Shown here: piece after piece, positions 1 through 9,432 of the stretch | Layout of the letters: the number at the start of each line of letters is the position of its first letter | Numbering within the stretch: the first letter of the stretch is position 1 | Source of the DNA: a bacterium | GTDB taxonomy: Bacteria > CAIJMQ01 > JAADFP01 | Direction of reading: 5' to 3' | DNA: 9,432 nucleotides | Assembly (NCBI GenBank): GCA_027021085.1 | Contig: JALUVB010000004.1 | Span: forward strand, 1-9,432 | Program-made: the position numbers and the translations under genes | The notes under the pieces: generated by a model | What the model was told of the DNA's origin: nothing | The model's database searches: none | What the model saw: the letters and a program-made list of their open reading frames with translations, nothing else

Positions 1-1017
1 GACGATTATATCTCTTTTATGTGGAAGGATAAAATTCCTCAGTGGAAAGCACGTGTTGAGACAGAGCACGACCGTTTTGGAGCAGACAGTTTTATACATT
101 TGAGTCCAAATCCTTCTCCCTACGACCCGCCGATAGAGATATGCAACGTAAAGGAAACATCGGAGACTGTGACCTATACAAAGATAATTCATACTTCCCA
201 GGGAGACCTGTCGGCGGATATATTTATCGGACGGAGGACACCCATCAGCTTTCTTTCCCATTATGTTAAAGACCCCGAAGCCGAACGGGATAAAATATTG
301 CACCTATTGAAACATCCTGACAGCAAAGACCTGGAGGAGATAAAAAATGCCTATGTAGAAATCGGACCCAGAGCGCATGTGGGATTATGGATTCCCACGC
401 CTATCGATTGGTGGAGTGAAATGCGCGGCACTCAGGCAATGATAATGGACCTCTTGGATTATCCCGAATTGATGACCACGCTTTTTCAGGCATATACTGA
501 ATATGCAGCGGCATTGACAGATTACGTGCTGACAAATACTCCTCTTGACTCAGTCGGGTTGGGCGGCTCAAATACTTCCATGAGCGTTATCAGCCCTGAC
601 CTTCACAGGAAATACAGCCTGGCGTTTGGTAAAGCAATCTGTCAGATAGCGCACAAGCATGATATCCCCGTTCAATATCATATGTGCGGGAAGTCACGCA
701 AGGCTTTACCCATCACAGCTGAAATGGGAGTTGATGGCTTTGATGCGTTGGAATCTCCGCCGACCGGAGATGTTGATCTTGCTGAGGTGAAGAGAGTTTT
801 TGGAGACAGAATTTCCTTACGCGGCAATGTTAATTCTATTACTGTGATGCTCAACGGCAGTACCGCAGATGTCGAAAAGGCAGTAATACGTTGCATGAAT
901 GCAGCCAAGGAGGGGGGAGGTTATATTTTGGGTGTTGGTGACCAAACACCTTATAATACACCAGAAGAAAATCTTTTCTGTTTTGTTGAAGCGGGCAAGA
1001 AGTACGGAGTCTATTGA
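1..1017 (+). CDS. URO-D / corrinoid methyltransferase-like family protein, 5' end cut by window
   Basis: Residues are numbered from the Met codon at 19. The frame is open to base 1 and no ribosome site precedes that Met, so the true start probably lies off the left edge. The C-terminal half has the family fold signature: H221-M-C223-G, then an alternating helix/strand pattern (GVDGFDALE, then DRISLRGNVN near 263-272), then GGGYILG followed by TPYNTPEEN near 310-318. This matches the uroporphyrinogen decarboxylase superfamily, which includes HemE and the MtaA/MtbA-type methyltransferases. The N-terminal HemE substrate-pocket signature is not seen, so haem synthesis is unlikely. The H-x-C pair resembles the zinc site of corrinoid methyltransferases, but the Cys usually found near the GGG strand is replaced by Asp (D308). 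Substrate unknown. It stands alone on the plus strand, followed by repeat-rich DNA. Confidence 0.85.
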   Translation, partial: DDYISFMWKDKIPQWKARVETEHDRFGADSFIHLSPNPSPYDPPIEICNVKETSETVTYTKIIHTSQGDLSADIFIGRRTPISFLSHYVKDPEAERDKILHLLKHPDSKDLEEIKNAYVEIGPRAHVGLWIPTPIDWWSEMRGTQAMIMDLLDYPELMTTLFQAYTEYAAALTDYVLTNTPLDSVGLGGSNTSMSVISPDLHRKYSLAFGKAICQIAHKHDIPVQYHMCGKSRKALPITAEMGVDGFDALESPPTGDVDLAEVKRVFGDRISLRGNVNSITVMLNGSTADVEKAVIRCMNAAKEGGGYILGVGDQTPYNTPEENLFCFVEAGKKYGVY

Positions 1018-1133
1018 ATCCAACCGGCAAGTTCAACTTGAGCGAAGGGGGACATAGGCAGCAACCTTGTCTGTGATATTAGACGCAAGTGGATATCGCG
1101 ATACAAGGAAAACCCTGACCACAGAACTTTTGC
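1018..1133. other. Gene-free stretch with no recognisable content
   Basis: Between the URO-D-like stop codon and the first repeat cassette I see no ORF, tRNA or convincing terminator. Only short chance-level dyads occur: AAGTT-C-AACTT near 1029 and TATCGCGATA at 1094. No hairpin followed by a T-run is present for the upstream gene. Confidence 0.5.
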
Positions 1134-1271
1134 CCAGGAAACCACCCCCTTCACCAGGGAACCAGGATACCAAGTTACCATTAACTGCTTACTATCCTTC
1201 CAGTCTACAATCTAAAGTCTATGGTCTATAGTCTAAGAGTTGTGAGTTGCCAGTTCTGAGTTGTTAGTTCT
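1134..1271 (-). repeat. Degenerate tandem-repeat cassette A (heptamers plus octamers)
   Basis: Read on the minus strand, bases 1271-1202 are ten consecutive 7-nt units in perfect register: five of AACTnnn type (AACTCAG, AACTCAC), then five of AGACTnT type (AGACTAT, AGACCAT). A GGAAGGAT linker (1201-1194) follows, then AGTAAGC and AGTTAAT (1193-1180). Last comes an 8-nt-period tract built on CCTGGTnn/CTTGGTnn; on the plus strand this reads ACCAGGGA, ACCAGGAT, ACCAAGTT at 1153, 1161 and 1169. Bases 1153-1187 match 9344-9378 in reverse complement at 31 of 35 positions by eye, and all four differences are transitions. No coding potential is evident. Confidence 0.85.
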
Positions 1272-1298
1272 ACCTGTGCCCCCACCTGTATCTTGGGA

Positions 1299-1345
1299 GA
1301 GTTGTGAGTCCCGACATATGTCGGGAGTTCTGAGTTGCCAGTTCC
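1299..1345. repeat. Short GAGTTnn heptamer tract interrupted by a palindrome
   Basis: On the plus strand the units GAGTTGT (1299) and GAGTCCC (1306) precede an 18-base palindrome. GAGTTCT (1325), GAGTTGC (1332) and CAGTTCC (1339) follow it. These are the same units as in 1237-1271 of cassette A. The palindrome therefore looks inserted into a pre-existing heptamer tract, with shared bases at both joins. Confidence 0.7.
1309..1326. repeat. 18-bp perfect palindrome, copy 1 (TCCCGACATATGTCGGGA)
   Basis: The sequence equals its own reverse complement over 18 bases. Two more copies lie within 300 bases (1349-1366 and 1609-1626), sharing TCCCGAC and GTCGGGA arms with a variable four-base centre. 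This resembles a REP-like dispersed palindrome. No T-run follows on either strand, so it is not a standard intrinsic terminator. Confidence 0.8.
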
Positions 1346-1348
1346 CTG

Positions 1349-1366
1349 TCCCGGCGCATGTCGGGG
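1349..1366. repeat. Degenerate copy 2 of the TCCCGAC/GTCGGGA palindrome
   Basis: TCCCGGCGCATGTCGGGG keeps the arm and centre layout of the perfect copy at 1309-1326 with a few substitutions, so the dyad is weakened. A run of seven T begins at 1384, about 17 bases downstream. That gap is too long for an ordinary terminator. Confidence 0.65.
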
Positions 1367-1436
1367 CATCTATTCCCTCCGCCTTTTTTTAAATCCTAAA
1401 ACCCACGGCAACCTCGAGTAAACCATAAGGCTTGCT
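1367..1436. other. Gene-free spacer with a T-run
   Basis: This contains a homopolymeric T-run at 1384-1390 and otherwise unstructured sequence between two repeat cassettes. I see no ORF, promoter pair or RNA gene here. Confidence 0.4.
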
Positions 1437-1650
1437 CCCAGGAAACCAAGATTACCAAGATACCAACCCACCATTCACTGCTTACTGTTTACTATTTACT
1501 GTCCACTATTCACTATTTACTATCCTTCCCCTCGCTACTATCTACTCGCTACCCGCTACTGTCCACCATCTCCCAGTCTAATGTCTATGGTCTATAGTCT
1601 AAAGTCTATCCCGACTTCTGTCGGGAGCCTTCCCCCCGCTACTCGCTACT
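1437..1650 (-). repeat. Degenerate tandem-repeat cassette B at the 3' end of mtnP
   Basis: Read on the minus strand from the mtnP stop, the order is as follows. Two AGTAGCG units come first (1650-1637), the first of them using the last base of the stop codon. The hairpin-forming palindrome (1626-1609) follows. Then come 11 heptamers in unbroken register (1609-1533): AGAC-type, a GGGAGAT unit and AGTAGCG-type. A linker containing GGAAGGAT (1529-1522) leads to eight AGTRAAY-type heptamers in register (1521-1466), and finally a CTTGGTAT/CTTGGTAAT tract of 8-9 nt period (1465-1437). The cassette order parallels cassette A and the cassette after leuS. It would be transcribed as the mtnP 3' untranslated region. 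Confidence 0.88.
1609..1626 (-). repeat. Palindrome copy 3; possible hairpin after mtnP
   Basis: TCCCGAC and GTCGGGA arms form a 7-bp GC-rich stem around a four-base loop (AGAA on the mtnP strand), beginning 23 bases after the mtnP stop. It could stabilise the 3' end of the mtnP transcript. The following bases (TAGACTTTAG on that strand) lack a U-tract, so factor-independent termination is doubtful. Confidence 0.6.
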
Positions 1651-2501
1651 TACTCAACATACTTCCCGATAATGGCACTTAGCCTTTGTTTCGTTTCCTG
1701 GCTAATTAGCTCAGGAGAGGTAATAATCGCATCTTTAAGTGCTTCCGAACAGGAGCAATCTCTCTGCTCGGGCAATATTTTAACCGCGCGGGTAAGTATC
1801 TTCTTTGCCATCTCGATGTTTCTGCGCAGGTATTCCAGAATACCCTGGATATCCACCGCTTCCTCTTTCCAGACATCATAATCCGTAACCATGGCCATGG
1901 TGGCATAGCAAATTTCCGCCTCCCGGGCAAGCTTTGCCTCGGTTATGTTGGTCATCCCGATAACATCAAAGCCAAGTGTCCGGTAAACCTTGGATTCTGC
2001 CCGGGTAGAAAACGAGGGCCCCTCGATAGTAACGTATGTCCCCCCTTTATGCACCTTTGCTCCCTCTTTTTGGGCGGATTCAAAGAGAATGTCGGAAAGA
2101 AGAGGGCATACAGGGTCGGCCACTCCTACATGCGCTACAATTCCCTCTCCGAAGAAAGTATCTATTCTTCTCTTCGTACGGTCAAAGAATTGTCCCGGGA
2201 TAACCACGTCCATGGGATGAATATCTTCCTTTAGGCTTCCTACTGCCGAAACAGAAATTATCCATTCCACGCCGAGCATTTTAAAAGCGTAGATGTTAGC
2301 ACGATAATTTATCTCTGAAGGTAAGATATGATGTCCTCTTCCATGCCTGGCAAGGAATATTACCTCTGTTCCGTCCATCTCGCCCAGAAAAAAAGCATCC
2401 GAAGGGTCTCCGAAAGGCGTGTTGATTCTTTTCTCTTCTTTTATTTGCAGTCCTTCCAATGAATAAAGTCCACTGCCTCCAATTATTCCTATCTTTCCCA
2501 T
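1650..2501 (-). CDS. mtnP: S-methyl-5'-thioadenosine phosphorylase
   Basis: This cytosolic enzyme cleaves methylthioadenosine with phosphate to adenine and methylthioribose-1-phosphate, salvaging the by-product of polyamine synthesis. At 283 aa it has the usual family length. The N-terminal IGIIGGSGLY holds the phosphate-binding GGSG (residues 8-11). ARHGRGHHILPSEINYRAN (51-69) and VTIEGPSFSTRAES (157-170) are hallmark blocks of the MTAP/PNP class. The base-recognition segment reads TDYDVWKEE (206-214). Its paired Asp (D207, D209) is the adenine-type signature, where 6-oxopurine PNPs carry Asn, so MTA is the likely substrate. A C249-S-C251 pair near the C-terminus matches the CxC motif known from thermophilic archaeal homologues. 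The ATG at 2501 follows AAAGGAG at a 6-base spacing. It has its own promoter 192 bases downstream of the archease gene. No other methionine-salvage gene is in view. Confidence 0.95.
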   Translation of the reverse strand: MGKIGIIGGSGLYSLEGLQIKEEKRINTPFGDPSDAFFLGEMDGTEVIFLARHGRGHHILPSEINYRANIYAFKMLGVEWIISVSAVGSLKEDIHPMDVVIPGQFFDRTKRRIDTFFGEGIVAHVGVADPVCPLLSDILFESAQKEGAKVHKGGTYVTIEGPSFSTRAESKVYRTLGFDVIGMTNITEAKLAREAEICYATMAMVTDYDVWKEEAVDIQGILEYLRRNIEMAKKILTRAVKILPEQRDCSCSEALKDAIITSPELISQETKQRLSAIIGKYVE

Positions 2502-2507
2502 CTTTCT

Positions 2508-2514
2508 CTCCTTT
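2508..2514 (-). promoter_or_regulatory. Ribosome binding site of mtnP (AAAGGAG)
   Basis: A near-perfect Shine-Dalgarno sequence sits six bases before the ATG at 2501. It fixes that start, which also begins exactly at the conserved IGIIGGSG block. Confidence 0.8.
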
Positions 2515-2561
2515 CTTTGCTACCCAGGACCGGAACTTGATATCCACACAATTCTGCAACT

Positions 2562-2589
2562 ATTGTAACAAAGATGTTTTTTCCGTCAA
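2562..2589 (-). promoter_or_regulatory. Sigma70-like promoter for mtnP (TTGACG-N16-TACAAT)
   Basis: On the minus strand, TTGACG (2589-2584) and TACAAT (2567-2562) each match the consensus at five of six positions. They are separated by 16 bases. Transcription would start near 2555, giving a leader of about 54 nt. mtnP can therefore be expressed independently of gyrA and archease. Confidence 0.7.
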
Positions 2590-2693
2590 CACCCCGGCAA
2601 TTAAACAGAATTATGCAGGGCAGAAAAGTTTAACCTCCCGATAAAAGCATTTCAGCCAGTACAACACAACCATTTCAGGCTGGTAAATCTTTC

Positions 2694-3098
2694 TTAAACG
2701 TCAAATACAATGGTGGCTTTGGGCGGCTTTCCCGCAATTTTCAGGTTATGGTAAGTAGCAGCCTTTATTTCCAGGTTTAAGGTGTGGTGAGGCTTTAGTT
2801 TTTCTCCTTTTGCTTTTGCCTGCAGGAAATTCTTACTTAATTTCTCTATGCGAAAATAAGAGAAGACATATCCCTGCGAATGCAGGTAAAGTAATTCATT
2901 CAGCCATCTTACCAGTAGGTCCTCGTAGTCTTCCCCCTCCACTTTTACCTCTATCTCTTTTTCCGGCTTAATTGCAGAGATATTGGTAATCAGGGAGAAC
3001 ATTCCCCTGGCTGCTGTTTCCATGAGGTCGGGCACATCTTTGCCTTTTACCTCTAAGGAAACATCGGCAGTATGAGGGACAGGTTGGAACTCTCCCAT
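2694..3098 (-). CDS. Archease (RtcB RNA-ligase activator)
   Basis: Archease is a small cytosolic SHS2-fold protein that speeds guanylylation and turnover of the RNA ligase RtcB in RNA repair and splicing. This 134-aa protein is full length. The N-terminus reads FQPVPHTADVSLEVKG, with the family's HTAD block (H9, D12). DLLVRWLNELLYLHSQG (60-76), HHTLNLEIKAATYHNL (104-119) and the C-terminal ATIVFDV with D133 are typical archease segments; conserved acidic residues at the two ends form the metal site in known structures. The ATG overlaps the gyrA stop by one base (TGATG), so translation is probably coupled to gyrA. No rtcB gene is in the window; the partner must be elsewhere. No clear terminator follows; a weak CAGCC/GGCTG dyad lies just past the stop. 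Confidence 0.94.
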   Translation of the reverse strand: MGEFQPVPHTADVSLEVKGKDVPDLMETAARGMFSLITNISAIKPEKEIEVKVEGEDYEDLLVRWLNELLYLHSQGYVFSYFRIEKLSKNFLQAKAKGEKLKPHHTLNLEIKAATYHNLKIAGKPPKATIVFDV

Positions 3099-5512
3099 CA
3101 GACTTCCCGGAGCACCGCTACATCTATGAGCGAATCTCCTTCGTGCAGGGAAATTATCCTGACTCCCCGGGTAGACCTGCCCATCTCCCGCACCTGGGAA
3201 GTGGGGAAACGCATTACCATGCCGCCTGCTGTCAAGAGTATTGCCTCCTCCTCCCCGGTAACACCCAGTGCCGCGATAACTTCTCCCGTGATTTTGCTCA
3301 CCTTGATCCCCACCACGCCTTTTCCTCCCCGGTGCCGAATAGGAAAGCGCGTGAATACAGTCCTCTTACCATAACCGTTCCTGGTGGCAATGAAAAGACT
3401 CTTTCCCTCCCTTCGTGTTGCCACTCCGGCAATATGGTCTTTCGGGTGAAGTGTCATCCCTCTTACTCCCCGGGCAGTTCTTCCCATACATCTCACCTCT
3501 TTGGAGGAGAACCTGATAGCTTTGCCCTTGCTGCTGATAAGGATTATCTCGTCTTCCTCATTTATCAATTTTACTTCCTTCAGGGAGTCTCCTTCTTCCA
3601 TGTTCAGGGCAATGATACCCGTAGAGCGGGGATGCGAGAAAGCCTTAAGTGGTGTCTGTTTAACTCTTCCCTTGCTGCTTACCATGAATACATACTCTCC
3701 ATCCCGGAACTCGCTTACCCGGAGAAATGCCTGCGGCTTCTCACCCTCCTGTAAAGGAAGCAGGTTAACAATTGCCTTTCCCTTGGACAACCTGCCTGCA
3801 GTAGGCACCTGGTACACTTTAAACCAGTAAACCTTGCCCATATTGGTAAAGCACAGCAGGTAGTCGTGCGTGGAGGCTACGAGCAGGAATTTCAGGAAAT
3901 CCTCGTCTTTCTTCTCCATACCCTTTAAACCCTTGCCACCTCTCTCCTGTTTACGGTAGGTGGAAAGGGGGAGTCTCTTTATATAGCCGCTCTCCGTGAA
4001 TGTAACCACCATCTGTTCCTGGGGAATCAGGTCTTCTATGGTAACTTCTTCCCCGGATTCCACGATTTCTGTTCTTCTGTCATCCGCGAACTTTTCCCTC
4101 AGCCCGGTTAATTCTTCTTTAATTATCTGCCTTATTTTAAGGGGGGAAGAGAGAATTCCTTCCAGCCTGACTATTTCCTTAATTACCGCCAGGTAGTCTT
4201 CTTCCACCTTTTTCCGCTCCAGCCCGGTAAGCCTCTGCAATCGCATTTCCAGTATTGCCTGGGCCTGGATTAAGGTAAGGGAGAATTTTTTAATGAGGCT
4301 TTCCCGCGCCTTATCCACGGTAGGAGATTTGCGAATGATACTTATAATCTCATCAATATGGTCAAGGGCAATTTTAAGCCCTTCCAGGATATGCGCCTTG
4401 TCTCTCGCCTGCCTGAGGAGAAAGGCTGTGCGTCTGCGTACTATCTCTTCCCGGAAAGAGAGGAAATGCTCCAGTATTCTGCGCAGGGTAAGCACCTGTG
4501 GTTTCCCGTCCACCAGGGCAAGCAGGATAATACCAAAAGAAGACTGGAGGGGAGTATGCTTATAAAGCCTGTTTAAAACAATCTGGGGATTCTCGCCTCT
4601 TTTCAGGTCTATAACTATTCGCAAGCCATCTTTATCTGATTCATCGCGCAGGTCAGAAATTCCTTCTAATTTTTTCTCCCTCACCAGGGAGCTTATGGAT
4701 TCCAGGATTCTTGTCTTATTCACCATGAAGGGAATCTCGCTGATAATTATCCTTTTTCTCTCGCCTTTATGCTCTTCCGTGAAACTTTTTGCCCTGATTC
4801 TTATTATTCCCCTCCCGGTAAGGTAAGCCTGCCTTATTCCCTCTTTTCCGTAAATTATGCCTCCCGTGGGGAAATCAGGTCCCGGGATTATTCTCAATAG
4901 CTCCTCATCTTCCACCTCGGGATTTTCCAGGAGCGTTACAAGGGCATCCACTACCTCTCCCAGGTTATGGGGAGGAATATCCGTAGCCATCCCCACGGCA
5001 ATACCCGAAGAGCCGTTCACCAGGAGATTTGGCAGAAGCGTGGGAAGCACCACTGGCTCCTGGCGTGTATTATCGTAGTTGGGGATAAAGTCCACGGTGT
5101 CTTTTGCCACATCCCTTAACATCTCCTCTGTAAGGTGGGGCATCCTCGCCTCGGTATAACGCATGGCAGCCGGAGGGTCTCCGTCTACCGAGCCAAAGTT
5201 CCCCTGCCCTTCCACCAGCGGGTAGCGCATGAGAAAATCCTGTGCCATTCTTACCAGGGTAGAGTAAATGGCCGCATCTCCGTGCGGATGGTAATTACCA
5301 TTCACGTCACCGCAAATCTTTGCACACTTTCGATAAGGGCGATTGGCATAAAGCCCCAGGTCCCGCATTGCCCAGAGTATTCTTCTTTGAACAGGTTTCA
5401 GTCCGTCCCTCACATCAGGAAGAGCACGGGATACTATCACGCTCATTGCATAGTCCAGGTAGGAACTTTTCATTTCCTGTTCAATATCAATTGACCTTAT
5501 TTTTTCCTGCAT
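3098..5512 (-). CDS. gyrA: DNA gyrase subunit A
   Basis: This is the breakage-reunion subunit of the gyrase heterotetramer, which introduces negative supercoils with GyrB. At 804 aa it is in the normal range. The order is: winged-helix/tower region opening with [20 protein letters not shown] (20-39); QRDR-type segment [18 protein letters not shown] (74-91); catalytic R118-Y119 within AAMRYTEAR; coiled-coil region about 350-470; and a C-terminal beta-pinwheel from about 495. The GyrA box QERGGKG (522-528) supports GyrA rather than ParC, and a second box-like RHRGGKG lies at 726-732. Positions equivalent to E. coli Ser83 and Asp87 are A80 and S84, both non-standard for fluoroquinolone binding. 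The ATG at 5512 follows GTGAGG by seven bases. It leads a gyrA-archease operon and is transcribed away from the oxidoreductase-leuS pair. Confidence 0.97.
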
Positions 5513-5519
5513 TGCTTTA

Positions 5520-5525
5520 CCTCAC
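5520..5525 (-). promoter_or_regulatory. Ribosome binding site of gyrA (GTGAGG)
   Basis: GTGAGG sits seven bases before the ATG at 5512 and supports that start, which gives the usual short GyrA N-terminus before the [14 protein letters not shown] block. Confidence 0.65.
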
Positions 5526-5569
5526 TAAATAAAGTTGATGAAGGGAAACAAGAGTTTCACTGTGCTTAA

Positions 5570-5595
5570 CCGGGGCTGCATGGGATGGCCCCCGG
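5570..5595 (-). promoter_or_regulatory. GC-rich hairpin in the gyrA leader
   Basis: CCGGGG and CCCCGG arms flank a 14-base loop, giving a six-pair all-GC stem in an otherwise AT-rich leader. It lies between the predicted start of transcription (about 5678) and the gyrA start codon, about 58 bases before the ATG. No T-run follows on the minus strand, so it is not an obvious terminator. A role in mRNA stability or leader control is speculative. Confidence 0.4.
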
Positions 5596-5677
5596 CATCA
5601 TTTTTACAGGGTTCCTTCATATGTAAATCCACAGTCTTCTGACCATCGGAAAAAAAGAATTCCATTCTTATAAAAAG

Positions 5678-5696
5678 CTGTGTTATTTTAACACAG
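5678..5696. promoter_or_regulatory. Operator-like perfect dyad (CTGTGTTA-TTT-TAACACAG)
   Basis: Two 8-base arms are exact reverse complements around a 3-base centre. The dyad covers the predicted gyrA -10 element and sits about 50 bases upstream of the predicted start of the oxidoreductase transcript. That placement suits a regulator controlling one or both divergent promoters. On the minus strand it is followed by CTTTTTAT, so an AT-rich hairpin is an alternative reading. Confidence 0.5.
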
Positions 5697-5713
5697 TGAG
5701 TGTAAAATCACAA
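5685..5713 (-). promoter_or_regulatory. Predicted gyrA promoter (TTGTGA-N17-TAAAAT)
   Basis: On the minus strand, TTGTGA (5713-5708) and TAAAAT (5690-5685) match the sigma70 consensus at four and five of six positions with the ideal 17-base spacer. Transcription from about 5678 gives a leader of about 166 nt. The -10 lies inside the dyad at 5678-5696. Confidence 0.5.
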
Positions 5714-5720
5714 ATTCCCG

Positions 5721-5729
5721 TGGTATAAT
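5721..5729 (+). promoter_or_regulatory. Extended -10 promoter for the oxidoreductase-leuS operon
   Basis: TGG-TATAAT is a perfect -10 hexamer preceded by a TGn extension. The -35 position at 17-base spacing (5701-5706, TGTAAA) is a poor match, as is usual for extended -10 promoters. The start of transcription would be near 5736, with a leader of about 23 nt that contains the ribosome site. Confidence 0.65.
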
Positions 5730-5744
5730 ACTTCCTTCTTTAAA

Positions 5745-5750
5745 AAGAGG
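5745..5750 (+). promoter_or_regulatory. Ribosome binding site deciding the oxidoreductase start (AAGAGG)
   Basis: AAGAGG lies eight bases before the ATG at 5759 but only two bases before the in-frame TTG at 5753. The ATG is therefore the better start, two codons inside the longest reading frame. Confidence 0.65.
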
Positions 5751-5758
5751 TTTTGCAG

Positions 5759-6814
5759 ATGAATAAATTCAGGTTCGGTGTTATTGGATGCGGAGTTATA
5801 GGCCCCTGGCATGCGGATGCAATCAGGGCAATACCCGAAGCAGAGTTGGTAGCCTGTGCTGACGTGGCAGAAGAAAAAGCCAGGACAATGGGAGAAAAAT
5901 ACGGCATAGACTGGTACACCGACATCAATGAACTGCTGCAACGGGAGGATATAGACATAGTAAACATATGCGTACCCAGCGGATTGCGGAGAGACATAGC
6001 TGTCCCGGCCGCCAGGGCAGGAAAACATATAATTGCAGAGAAACCGCTTGAGGTTACCCTGGAAAAATGTGACGAGATTATAAAGGCAGCCAGGGACAAC
6101 GGGGTAAAACTGGGAGTGATATTCCAGGCAAGGTTTGGCGACGAAATCCGGATACTCATAAATGCCCTGAATAAAGGCAAATTTGGCAAATTGGTTTACG
6201 GAGCAGCTTCAGTAAAATGGTATCGTACCCAGGAATATTATGATTCGGCAGGTTGGAGAGGAACCTGGGCACTGGACGGAGGCGGTGCATTGATGAACCA
6301 GAGTATCCATGCAGTAGATTTACTGCAATGGATAATGGGAGACGTGGAATCTCTCTTCGCCTATACGGGCCTCCTGGCACATGAAAGAATAGAAACAGAG
6401 GATACCGCAATTGCCACCATAAAGTTTAAAAACGGCGCCCTGGGCTCTATTGTGGGTATGACCTCTGCGTATCCTGGCTACGCAAGGAAAATTGAAATTT
6501 ACGGCACCAGAGGGTCCGCTATCCTTGAGAATGAGAACATTGTAGCCTGGAACTTTAGGGAAGAAGACGAAGAAGACAGGCTAATAAAAGAAGGCAAACC
6601 TAAAAAGAAGGCAGAAGCCACGGGTGCCTCCTCTGCCACGGCCGGTTTAGCCACGGAAGGACACAGGAGACAGATTCTTGACTTCATAGAGGCTGTCAAG
6701 AAGGATGCAGAGCCACTGGTTAACGGGGAAGAAGGAAGGAAACCCGTGGAAATTATCCTGGGAATTTACCAGTCTGCCAGGGAAAGGAAAGAAGTCCGTT
6801 TTCCCATTAAGTAA
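5759..6814 (+). CDS. Gfo/Idh/MocA family NAD(P)-dependent oxidoreductase
   Basis: This 351-aa cytosolic sugar or cyclitol dehydrogenase family member has the usual family length. The N-terminal Rossmann domain begins FGVIGCGVIGPWHADAI, with the GxGxxG dinucleotide loop at G10-C-G-V-I-G15. It ends in the signature AEKP (E94-K95-P96), whose lysine is a catalytic residue in the family. The C-terminal substrate domain carries GWRGTWALDGGGALMNQSIH (165-184), in which H184 together with D187 fits the conserved catalytic His/Asp helix. A Lys/Glu/Ala-rich loop spans about 266-300. Substrate cannot be assigned; related proteins act on inositols, UDP-sugar acids and other sugars. It leads a two-gene transcript with leuS, separated by one base. 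The pairing with a tRNA synthetase suggests shared expression, not a shared pathway. The ATG at 5759 is preferred to an upstream TTG because of ribosome-site spacing. Confidence 0.93.
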   Translation: MNKFRFGVIGCGVIGPWHADAIRAIPEAELVACADVAEEKARTMGEKYGIDWYTDINELLQREDIDIVNICVPSGLRRDIAVPAARAGKHIIAEKPLEVTLEKCDEIIKAARDNGVKLGVIFQARFGDEIRILINALNKGKFGKLVYGAASVKWYRTQEYYDSAGWRGTWALDGGGALMNQSIHAVDLLQWIMGDVESLFAYTGLLAHERIETEDTAIATIKFKNGALGSIVGMTSAYPGYARKIEIYGTRGSAILENENIVAWNFREEDEEDRLIKEGKPKKKAEATGASSATAGLATEGHRRQILDFIEAVKKDAEPLVNGEEGRKPVEIILGIYQSARERKEVRFPIK

Positions 6815-6815
6815 A

Positions 6816-9290
6816 ATGGAAAAATATTCCCCCGCAATATTGGAGAAAAAATGGCAGGAGTTCTGGGAAAGAGGAAAATATTTCCACGTAAACACTTCTG
6901 AGGGCAAGGACAAATTTTACACGCTGGTAATGTTCCCCTACCCTTCCGGCACCCTGCACGTGGGACACTGCAGAAACTACATAATAGGCGATGCCCTCAC
7001 CCGCTACAAGAAAATGCGGGGATTTCGCGTCCTTTCTCCCATGGGATGGGATGCCTTCGGGCTGCCGGCAGAAAATGCCGCAATTAAAAGCGGGGTGCAC
7101 CCCCTCTCCTGGACCAGAAACAACATAAAAATCCTCAAGCGACAGCTCTCCACCCTGGGCACAGGCTATGACTGGGAAAGAGAGGTTACCTCCTGCCTGC
7201 CAGATTATTACAAGTGGACCCAGTGGCTCTTTCTCCGGCTCTACGAAAAAGGCTTAGCCTATCGCAAGAAGGCGCCGGTTAACTGGTGCCTCTCCTGCAA
7301 GACAGTCCTGGCAAATGAACAGGTAGTGGAGGGGAAATGCGAACGCTGTGGTAGTGAAGTAGTCCTGAAAGAACTGGAACAATGGTTCTTCCGTATAACC
7401 CACTACGCTAAGGAACTTCTAAATGACCTCGACTCCCTTCCCAACTGGCCTGAACGAGTAAAGATAATGCAGAGGAACTGGATTGGGGAAAGCAAGGGAG
7501 TAGAAATATATTTTAAACTCGCAACTCAAAACTTAAAACTCAAAACTTTAGTGGTATTTACCACCCGGGTGGACACCATCTTTGGAGCTACTTACCTGGT
7601 GGTTTCTCCTCAGCATCCCCTGGTGAAAGAGATACTAAATATAGCCCCGGAAGGAAAAAAGAAAGAAATTGAAGCATTTATCAAAGAATGCAGCAGAGTA
7701 AAAAGGCCGGAGGAAGAAGTTGAGAAGGCAGGAGTATTCACCGGAGAATGGGTCACAAACCCGGTAAATGGCGAGAAGATTCCAGTGTGGATAGGCAACT
7801 ACGTGCTTTACGAGTACGGGACAGGAGCAATCATGGCAGTGCCCGCCCACGACCAGAGGGACTTTGAATTCGCCCGGAAGTACGGCCTGCCCATACGCGT
7901 GGTAATTGATAACCCTTCCTCCCCTCTAACGGCAGAATCTCTTTCTGCCGCCTACGAAGAGCCCGGCATCATGGTAAACTCCGCCCGCTTCAACGGGATG
8001 GAAAGTGAAAAGGCAAAAGAAGCCATAGCTGACTGGATGGAGAAGGAAGGAATAGGCAAAAGAAGTGTGCAGTATGCCTTGCGCGATTGGCTGGTTTCCC
8101 GCCAGAGATACTGGGGTGCCCCCATTCCTATAATCTACTGCCAGAAATGCGGCATTGTTCCTGTGCCTGAAAGTGATTTGCCGGTTATACTCCCCGAAAA
8201 GGTGGAATTTACTCCCACGGGAGAATCCCCTCTAAAATATGTAAAAGAATTTGTAGAGACCACCTGTCCCCGCTGCAGCAGCAAGGCAAGGCGGGAAACA
8301 GACACCCTGGATACATTCGTGGATTCCTCCTGGTATTACCTGAGATACATAAATCCTCACCTGGAGGAAAAGCCTTTTGAACCGGAAGAGGTAAACCAGT
8401 GGCTCCCGGTGGACCAGTACATAGGAGGGGTGGAACATGCCATTTTACATCTACTCTACTCCCGCTTTATCACCAAGGTTTTAAGAGATCTTAAGTGGGT
8501 TAACTTCTCCGAGCCTTTCCAGAACCTCTTCACGCAGGGAATGGTAGTCAAAGACGGGGCAAAAATGTCCAAGTCCAAAGGCAACGTGGTAAGCCCGGAT
8601 GAATTAATAGAAAAATACGGGGCTGACACCCTGAGGACTTACATACTTTTCATGGGACCGCCGGAAAAAGACGTTGAATGGGACGACAGGGCTATCGAGG
8701 GCGAATGGAGATTTCTCAACCGGATATGGAATAAAGTAATCTCCTCCCTGGGCCTCATCCCGGAAGAGGCAGAAATTGCCCCCGACAAATGCTCCCCGCA
8801 GGGAAAAAGCCTGTTCAGGTTTACCCACAGGGTGATTAAGCATATTACCCGCCAGATGGAGGAATTCCGGTTTAATACTGCAATCGCCCAGCTAATGGAA
8901 TTCCTGAACCAGATATACTCCTTCCAGGAAAAAACAGATGAAGACAGGAAAGTTTTGAAATTTTCCCTCTGCACTCTCCTGCGCCTCCTGCATCCCTTCG
9001 CTCCCCATATCACGGAAGAACTGTGGCAGCGCATGGGCAACTCCCCCTCCGTCCTTGATGCCTCCTGGCCTGCCTACGAAGAGGAATGGACAAAAGAAGA
9101 AGAAACCACCGTCATAGTGCAGGTAAACGGCAAGGTAAGGGGAAAATTCACTGCCTCTCCCGCAACACCGGAAGAGGAACTAAAAGAAAAAGCCCTCTCC
9201 CTCCCTCAGATGGCAAAGTACCTAACCGGCAAGAAAATAGAAAAATGCATCGTAGTCAAAAACAAATTGATCAATCTGGTGGTTAAGTAG
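6816..9290 (+). CDS. leuS: Leucyl-tRNA synthetase
   Basis: This cytosolic class Ia synthetase charges tRNA-Leu and edits mischarged non-cognate residues. It is 824 aa, close to the usual bacterial length. HIGH is H48-V-G-H51 within PYPSGTLHVGHCRN, and KMSKS is at 583-587. A zinc knuckle has C158-x2-C161 and C175-x2-C178. The CP1 editing domain has TTRVDT (249-254) and VPAHDQRDF (342-350) with D346. A second Cys set, C442/C445 and C484/C487, may bind another zinc. The C-terminus ends normally after VIVQVNGKVRGKF. I chose the ATG at 6816, one base after the oxidoreductase stop; the frame is open further upstream, but only within that gene. No good Shine-Dalgarno site precedes it, so coupled translation is likely. 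Residues 234-245 are encoded by an embedded heptamer repeat, and the usual TRPDT proline is valine (V252). Confidence 0.97.
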   Translation: MEKYSPAILEKKWQEFWERGKYFHVNTSEGKDKFYTLVMFPYPSGTLHVGHCRNYIIGDALTRYKKMRGFRVLSPMGWDAFGLPAENAAIKSGVHPLSWTRNNIKILKRQLSTLGTGYDWEREVTSCLPDYYKWTQWLFLRLYEKGLAYRKKAPVNWCLSCKTVLANEQVVEGKCERCGSEVVLKELEQWFFRITHYAKELLNDLDSLPNWPERVKIMQRNWIGESKGVEIYFKLATQNLKLKTLVVFTTRVDTIFGATYLVVSPQHPLVKEILNIAPEGKKKEIEAFIKECSRVKRPEEEVEKAGVFTGEWVTNPVNGEKIPVWIGNYVLYEYGTGAIMAVPAHDQRDFEFARKYGLPIRVVIDNPSSPLTAESLSAAYEEPGIMVNSARFNGMESEKAKEAIADWMEKEGIGKRSVQYALRDWLVSRQRYWGAPIPIIYCQKCGIVPVPESDLPVILPEKVEFTPTGESPLKYVKEFVETTCPRCSSKARRETDTLDTFVDSSWYYLRYINPHLEEKPFEPEEVNQWLPVDQYIGGVEHAILHLLYSRFITKVLRDLKWVNFSEPFQNLFTQGMVVKDGAKMSKSKGNVVSPDELIEKYGADTLRTYILFMGPPEKDVEWDDRAIEGEWRFLNRIWNKVISSLGLIPEEAEIAPDKCSPQGKSLFRFTHRVIKHITRQMEEFRFNTAIAQLMEFLNQIYSFQEKTDEDRKVLKFSLCTLLRLLHPFAPHITEELWQRMGNSPSVLDASWPAYEEEWTKEEETTVIVQVNGKVRGKFTASPATPEEELKEKALSLPQMAKYLTGKKIEKCIVVKNKLINLVVK
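7516..7550 (+). repeat. Five-unit heptamer array inside leuS (AACTCnn type)
   Basis: Five consecutive 7-nt units in register read AACTCGC, AACTCAA, AACTTAA, AACTCAA, AACTTTA. They encode LeuRS residues 234-245 (KLATQNLKLKTL) without breaking the frame. The unit type equals the AACTCAG/AACTCAC units on the minus strand of 1237-1271. Against the E. coli LeuRS sequence as I recall it, the stretch from the GVEI block to the TTRPD motif is about three residues longer here. Confidence 0.8.
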
Positions 9291-9395
9291 TGAGGAGTGA
9301 GCAATGAGGGAGAAATAGTAAAGAGTGAACAGTAAGCAGTAAACAGTTAATGATAACTCAGTATCCTGGTTTCCTGGTAATCCTGGTTTCTTGGC
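9289..9395 (+). repeat. Degenerate tandem-repeat cassette C at the 3' end of leuS
   Basis: Nine 7-nt units in exact register run from 9289 to 9351, starting with AGTGAGG, whose first two bases are the last two of the leuS TAG stop. AGTRARY-type units (AGTAAAG, AGTGAAC, AGTAAGC, AGTAAAC) follow, then AGTTAAT. Next comes TATCCTGGT, TTCCTGGT, AATCCTGGT, TTCTTGGC (9362-9395), an 8-9 nt period tract. Unit types and their order match cassettes A and B read on the minus strand. No intrinsic terminator is visible before the window ends. Confidence 0.87.
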
Positions 9396-9432
9396 AAAGG
9401 GGATAGATTTCGCAAGAATGACAAGAAACCAG
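9396..9432. other. Repeat-like tail cut by the window end
   Basis: The last bases include CAAGAATGACAAGAAACCAG. The closing AAACCAG resembles the CCAGGAAACCA units of cassettes A and B in plus orientation, so the repeat field probably continues past the right edge. I see no gene here. Confidence 0.3.

Follow-up and report, generated by a model that had tools for sequence, protein, structure and literature searches.

An in-frame array of a dispersed AACTNNN heptamer family inside a bacterial leucyl-tRNA synthetase gene

Direct repeats of the heptamer TAACTGA occur in marine Beggiatoaceae, cyanobacteria and Bacteroidetes (MacGregor 2015, PMC4679880). Here, we describe an array of five seven-base units that lies in frame inside leuS, the gene of leucyl-tRNA synthetase (LeuRS), on a stretch of 9,432 nucleotides of bacterial DNA (assembly GCA_027021085.1, contig JALUVB010000004.1, positions 1 to 9,432), which is called the window below. 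The leuS array and its family share several properties with the TAACTGA repeats: seven-base units with AACT, short arrays (two to six units for TAACTGA) and many dispersed copies. TAACTGA repeats are mostly intergenic. The few sets in open reading frames (ORFs) mostly belong to hypothetical proteins of small size or to the ends of proteins, and one of them maps to a surface loop of a protein resembling RNA polymerase beta-prime (PMC4679880). In contrast, the unit studied here is AACT with free last bases, it is not placed before start codons, its host is a canonical essential enzyme and the arrays of two Nitrospirota genomes lie inside conserved domains. TAACTGA repeats are found in ORFs only in the stop-free orientation and the leuS array follows this rule; its reverse strand carries a stop in 3/3 frames. 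Neither an exact TAACTGA unit nor AACTGA is present in the leuS array.

The short tandemly repeated repetitive (STRR) heptamers of heterocystous cyanobacteria are, like the AACT repeats, a degenerate heptamer family in short tandem arrays; unit sequences and hosts differ. The classic in-frame dispersed repeats are the Rickettsia palindromic elements (RPEs), which are in-frame miniature inverted-repeat transposable elements (MITEs; Ogata 2000, 2002; reviewed in PMC10969869). Like the leuS family, RPEs are found both between genes and in frame in housekeeping genes, where the protein tolerates them. However, they are palindromic, about 150 bp long and encode a conserved peptide, whereas the leuS array is only 35 bp long, is built from direct repeats and does not encode the same peptide in the two species. 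No inverted repeat or palindrome of about 70-150 bp, as expected for an RPE or MITE, was found at leuS, and the added sequence is confined to the hairpin described below. The in-gene tandem repeats of Borgs (aaTRs), the units of which are divisible by three (PMC9879509), resemble our case in that tandem repeats are common to intergenic regions and ORFs. Unlike in aaTRs, the leuS unit measures 7 nt, which shifts the frame from one unit to the next, and the encoded loop has few residues and a model of good confidence. In the literature searched, we did not find a report of heptamer arrays in LeuRS, or broadly in core genes, and a report elsewhere is possible.

The heptamer array of leuS and its genomic family

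The leuS gene (6816..9290, forward strand) is intact and encodes 824 amino acids. We took the ATG at 6816 (MEKYSP) as start codon and judged the mechanical ORF, which begins at 6705, too long. The protein carries the Pfam editing domain PF13603 (E-value 2e-70) and class I synthetase domains, its best solved structure is Thermus LeuRS (PDB 1h3n, E-value 5e-285) and it retains the invariant motif columns in an alignment of 36 LeuRS. The nearest named LeuRS come from Omnitrophota (56-60%). The array (7516..7550, forward strand) reads AACTCGC AACTCAA AACTTAA AACTCAA AACTTTA and was independently found by Tandem Repeats Finder (TRF) as a period-7 array at 7515-7547. It encodes residues 234-245, KLATQNLKLKTL, and is directly followed by VVFTTRVDT, which includes the editing-site motif TTRVDT (7560..7577, forward strand; residues 249-254). 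T249, T250, R251, D253 and T254 of this motif are invariant among the 36 LeuRS. The earlier note on this DNA had reported a heptamer array at this place, in frame and directly before TTRxDT, and both the sequence and TRF bear this out. It had described the units as five AACTCnn; the five period-7 units stand, but the fifth base is C in three of them and T in two, and the common core is AACT.

When we searched the 1.93-Mb genome of the window (G000) with three consecutive AACTNNN units, we obtained 100 matches, and four units gave 50 matches. The reversed-pattern controls yielded zero in both cases. In 3000 synonymous shuffles of the whole leuS gene, five units were never reached and the best runs had four units (two shuffles). 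Thus, the leuS array is a member of the dispersed heptamer family of this genome and not an accident of codon use, and the kinship with the intergenic repeats assumed in the earlier note holds. The array has the AACT core, strict 7-nt spacing and at least three units, and with five units it also stays within the family limit of five, in the window as well as in the second species of the genus (G001).

Our census of G000 was based on pattern searches and on the DNA surrounding the arrays that these listed. It covers all AACT arrays with three units or more, whereas other heptamer classes were only sampled. The AACT arrays comprise 3 to 5 units and never more, and their positional consensus is AACTCAC for the penultimate unit and AACTCTT or AACTTTT for the last one. 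The last two units of the leuS array come close to this consensus in G001 (AACTCAC, AACTTTA) and match it partially in the window (AACTCAA, AACTTTA). The seventh base is C or T in 93% of the family units; in leuS it is C, A, A, A, A in the window and C, T, C, C, A in G001. From these letters, the window array may be read as a derivative of the family, with the departure at the seventh base reflecting drift. The modules that accompany intergenic arrays (GGGACAGGG or CACAGGTGG before and AGACTATAG after) are absent beside the leuS array, which is flanked by plain coding sequence and shares only the array proper with the composite islands between genes.

Among the 50 AACT arrays in the stretches of G000, an ORF test classed 43 as intergenic, and seven overlap ORFs of at least 120 amino acids. 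Of those tested against Pfam or judged by size, the leuS array is the only one that lies within a gene for a recognised domain. In other recognised genes (CbiM, PAP2, DUF1574), arrays touch ends or starts only. We also considered small ORFs (100-220 amino acids) over arrays in G000 and G001 as further in-gene cases, but those tested had no Pfam match and are probably spurious. For period-7 AGT heptamers, one class of which appears as AACT arrays when read on the reverse strand, four-unit matches numbered 332 in G000, 132 in G001 and one in the sister genus (G002). The corresponding counts for AACT were 50, 12 and 0. These numbers suggest that heptamer arrays are a genus-level trait.

Position in the protein and age within the genus

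An AlphaFold2 model built from 36 LeuRS (mean predicted local distance difference test score, pLDDT, 85.7) places codons 234-244 (7515..7547, forward strand; pLDDT about 87) at the end of one strand, the turn and the start of the next strand of a beta-hairpin of the editing domain. In this model, which matches the LeuRS of E. coli and Thermus, a strand (225-235) is followed by the turn (236-243) and by a second strand (244-249) that runs into TTRVDT. Thermus LeuRS has a gap of three residues exactly opposite the array. Between the NWIG and TTRxDT motifs, 88 of 107 distinct LeuRS have 31 residues, with a range of 29-50; the same-class outgroups G003 and G005 also have 31, and the window's genus has 34. 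According to the model, the array rewrites a surface hairpin turn, the length of which already varies among bacteria. The claim that an essential gene tolerates the array at a variable hairpin is therefore well founded. The net change against the common length amounts to 9 nt, which is not a multiple of 7.

The congener G001, the leuS DNA of which is about 87% identical to that of the window genome, carries an array at the same site with the same borders and five units (AACTCGC AACTCGT AACTCAC AACTCAC AACTTTA). This array is close to the genomic consensus and has 20 nt in common with an intergenic array of G000. It encodes LATRNSQLTTL, and four of the nine loop residues differ from the window. 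Since site, borders and unit number agree in the two species, the array predates their split; the insertion is genus-old and stable in unit number. The earlier note had named missing residues or different unit counts in relatives as the mark of a recent arrival, and the comparison supports neither a recent arrival nor a variable unit number.

Between the two arrays, 5 of 35 bases differ. The codon changes are four amino-acid-changing and none synonymous; elsewhere in the region that was compared, the two kinds number 28 and 125, respectively (Fisher p 0.0015). All 20 bases of the AACT cores are the same in both species (hypergeometric p 0.009; p 0.05 with the gene's own codon-position rates). 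That the core is retained whatever the codon position hints at a process that would act on the DNA inside genes. The sister genus G002 has KDIQWEKGKI at the loop, one residue longer than the window and free of heptamers, and inspection of this extra loop by eye for a decayed array revealed none. Repeat-free relatives encoding the same residues with other codons, which the earlier note had named as evidence of chance, were not encountered: G002 has different residues and G001 keeps the repeat and changes residues. As a separate observation, the LeuRS of G001 (L179) lacks three residues opposite window residues 186-188 (KELEQWFF to KQWFF) at a nearly invariant place.

Arrays in Nitrospirota genes and between genes of the window's genome

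When 107 other leuS loci were scanned as controls for AACT runs, runs of at least three units were found in two, both from Nitrospirota (L071, DeMMO2_3; L102, NC_groundwater_2001). Their AACTCNN arrays (4592-4619 and 4549-4583, respectively) are in frame and lie in a different variable loop, before YWMPVDQYIGG. Four-unit matches in the two Nitrospirota genomes numbered 38 and 15, with nonzero controls (17 and 2). Among the distinct arrays read in these genomes (G060 and G061), 22 of 29 and 7 of 9 lie inside ORFs of at least 100 amino acids, and 18 and 6 of them are at least 20 residues away from both ORF ends. They occur in both orientations and never exceed five units. Since about 91% of the G060 stretches are covered by ORFs of at least 100 amino acids, arrays are not strongly excluded from genes there, unlike in the window's genome. 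Pfam identified as host genes (L289-L336) RuvC, CbiD, CbiC, CobU, CobN, MetG, MurC, Ddl and PrmC as well as AcrB-family, menaquinone-biosynthesis and other genes. The arrays of MurC and Ddl sit in a loop that is shorter by at least 13 residues in some relatives. With these cases, in-gene arrays are more general than the earlier note saw.

For an orthologous AcrB-family pair (L301 1498-1532, L290 684-718), all 35 bases of the array agree, compared with 67% identity across the 450 bases around it. A hand count for the two leuS pairs gave 12 substitutions, and 9 of these affect the two free (NN) positions of the unit (binomial p 0.0011), a test that is mildly biased because one array of each pair was found through its AACT core. 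Codon position does not account for this clustering, since consecutive units are read in different frames. It would reflect either constraint on the core or recopying of the arrays. Separately, the same variable MurC loop seems to hold different repeat families in different Nitrospirota species (peptides EVRSQKSEVR, TNDERRTTNDERR and SPLSKGGQRGG; MurC L338-L342, Ddl L346-L351), as if various repeats could settle there.

In the window itself, further arrays lie between genes. The reverse strand carries a five-unit array of the same family (1237..1270; AACTAAC AACTCAG AACTGGC AACTCAC AACTCTT), a second AACT array of three units found by pattern search (1326..1346) and an array of AGTAAAT/AGTGAAC-type heptamers detected by TRF and an AGTNNNN search (1482..1523). 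On the forward strand, TRF detected an AGTAAAG/AGTGAAC-type array directly downstream of leuS (9313..9347), and this region 3' of leuS is strongly different in G001. The composite islands (1018-1650 and 9290-9432 in the window, also L193-L221) contain a palindrome (GGCATGCGCCGGGACAGGG), an AACT array, AGACTATAG heptamers, AGTAAAC/AGTAGCG heptamers and a tract of period 8-9 (CCTGGTTTCTTGGTAT), in a similar order at many loci, and the orthologous gaps that hold such islands are strongly different in G001. Orthologous intergenic repeat gaps within the genus show 43-57% identity compared with about 78-89% in their flanks. A match in orientation between the leuS array and the other cassettes, as claimed in the earlier note, did not hold up: in gaps between tandem genes, the AACT strand coincides with the gene strand in eight cases and opposes it in five, and we rejected an orientation rule. 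The notion that stops block every frame of the reverse orientation was also weakened, with intergenic arrays leaving about 1.4 of 3 frames open in sense and about 1.1 of 3 in antisense. The unrelated genome G024 (L284, L286) yielded 77 five-unit AACTNNN matches of other unit types (AACTGAA, AACTGGA, AACTTTA), and its intergenic runs reach 12 units.

Origin and meaning of the array

We consider it likely that AACTNNN is a short dispersed heptamer cassette that is occasionally captured in frame at tolerant loops. Before the two species of the genus separated, a cassette copy of up to five units and about 35 bp would have lodged in frame in the editing domain of LeuRS, at a beta-hairpin turn that tolerates changes in length. 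It may have been retained because only three residues are added in total, the frame stays open and the conserved editing motif is spared. Thereafter, the G001 copy would have kept its resemblance to the genomic cassette, while the window copy probably drifted and its peptide became more lysine-rich. Three observations suggest arrival by copying: the unit number is fixed, the net change is 9 nt and similar arrays occur in Nitrospirota genes. The earlier note had left it at "invaded or expanded"; invasion is favoured but not proven, and no benefit for the protein is claimed. Several facts weigh against capture of a cassette. Among the genomes compared, none is close enough and has an empty site, G002 having its own unrelated extension of four residues, and the leuS site is occupied in only two genomes. 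The first unit partly overlaps TTT AAA CTC (F-K-L), which is frequent in LeuRS anyway, so that growth of the array from a native AAACTC seed is possible. Moreover, we found neither an enzyme or integrase nor a signal for recombination.

Growth by slippage from such a seed, with the intergenic likeness due to a genome-wide slippage habit instead of copying, could start from the F-K-L codons before the loop (TTTAAACTC), and the introduction of the TAACTGA study notes that, in many genomes, heptanucleotides are more common than other long simple repeats and that 7 nt has been proposed as a length favoured for slippage (PMC4679880). We nevertheless regard it as unlikely, since the net change is neither 7 nor 21 nt, AACT arrays end at five units in G000, G060 and G061 and neighbouring units differ in their last bases; an unchanged unit number in two species also speaks against it. 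No more probable, in our judgement, is selection on the AACTC core as a site in DNA or RNA that is bound, for instance, by a nucleoid or regulatory protein, in leuS and between genes alike. Such a role is possible; MacGregor suggested protein binding for the TAACTGA repeats (PMC4679880), and both the clustering of substitutions in NN positions, whatever the codon position, and the conserved AcrB-family array would agree with it. However, recopying of arrays would yield the same pattern, a bias for strand or gene arrangement was not seen and the fast turnover of the intergenic islands fits poorly with a needed site.

Two further explanations are extremely improbable. Chance codon use gains something from the fact that the array peptide is compatible with these codons: when the peptide was fixed and the codons were redrawn, 132 of 400,000 draws reached five units. 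It is refuted in effect by the whole-gene shuffles and the reversed-pattern controls; in addition, G001 keeps the heptamer core despite four changed residues and the only control leuS loci with comparable runs belong to two heptamer-rich genomes. A contingency tract that switches leuS on and off by phase variation deserves no more credit. Repeats with a unit length not divisible by three are capable of this in principle, and unit numbers of phase-variable repeats vary between close relatives. In leuS, the units are imperfect, both species have five and a slip by one unit should be lethal because the cell would lose an essential synthetase.

Capture of a cassette can be extended to a bolder proposal, which we hold tentatively and think rather doubtful. 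A cassette with an AACT core and a limit of about five units might be actively copied or rewritten at the DNA level, both between genes and into loops of essential genes, in unrelated bacterial phyla. Core enzymes (LeuS, MurC, Ddl, MetG, CbiC, RuvC) would then owe some of the diversity of their surface loops to this process and not to ordinary point mutation or slippage.

Since a unit of 7 nt is expected to disrupt a reading frame, heptamer repeats usually pass for curiosities of intergenic DNA. In the present case, an array is stably built into an essential tRNA synthetase, and an independent lineage carries such arrays in another LeuRS loop and in many core enzymes. For annotators and structure modellers, these data are a caution that loops written by repeats (NSELRTLNSEL-like peptides) occur in ordinary housekeeping proteins. 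With such arrays at hand, the origin of hypervariable loops becomes testable.
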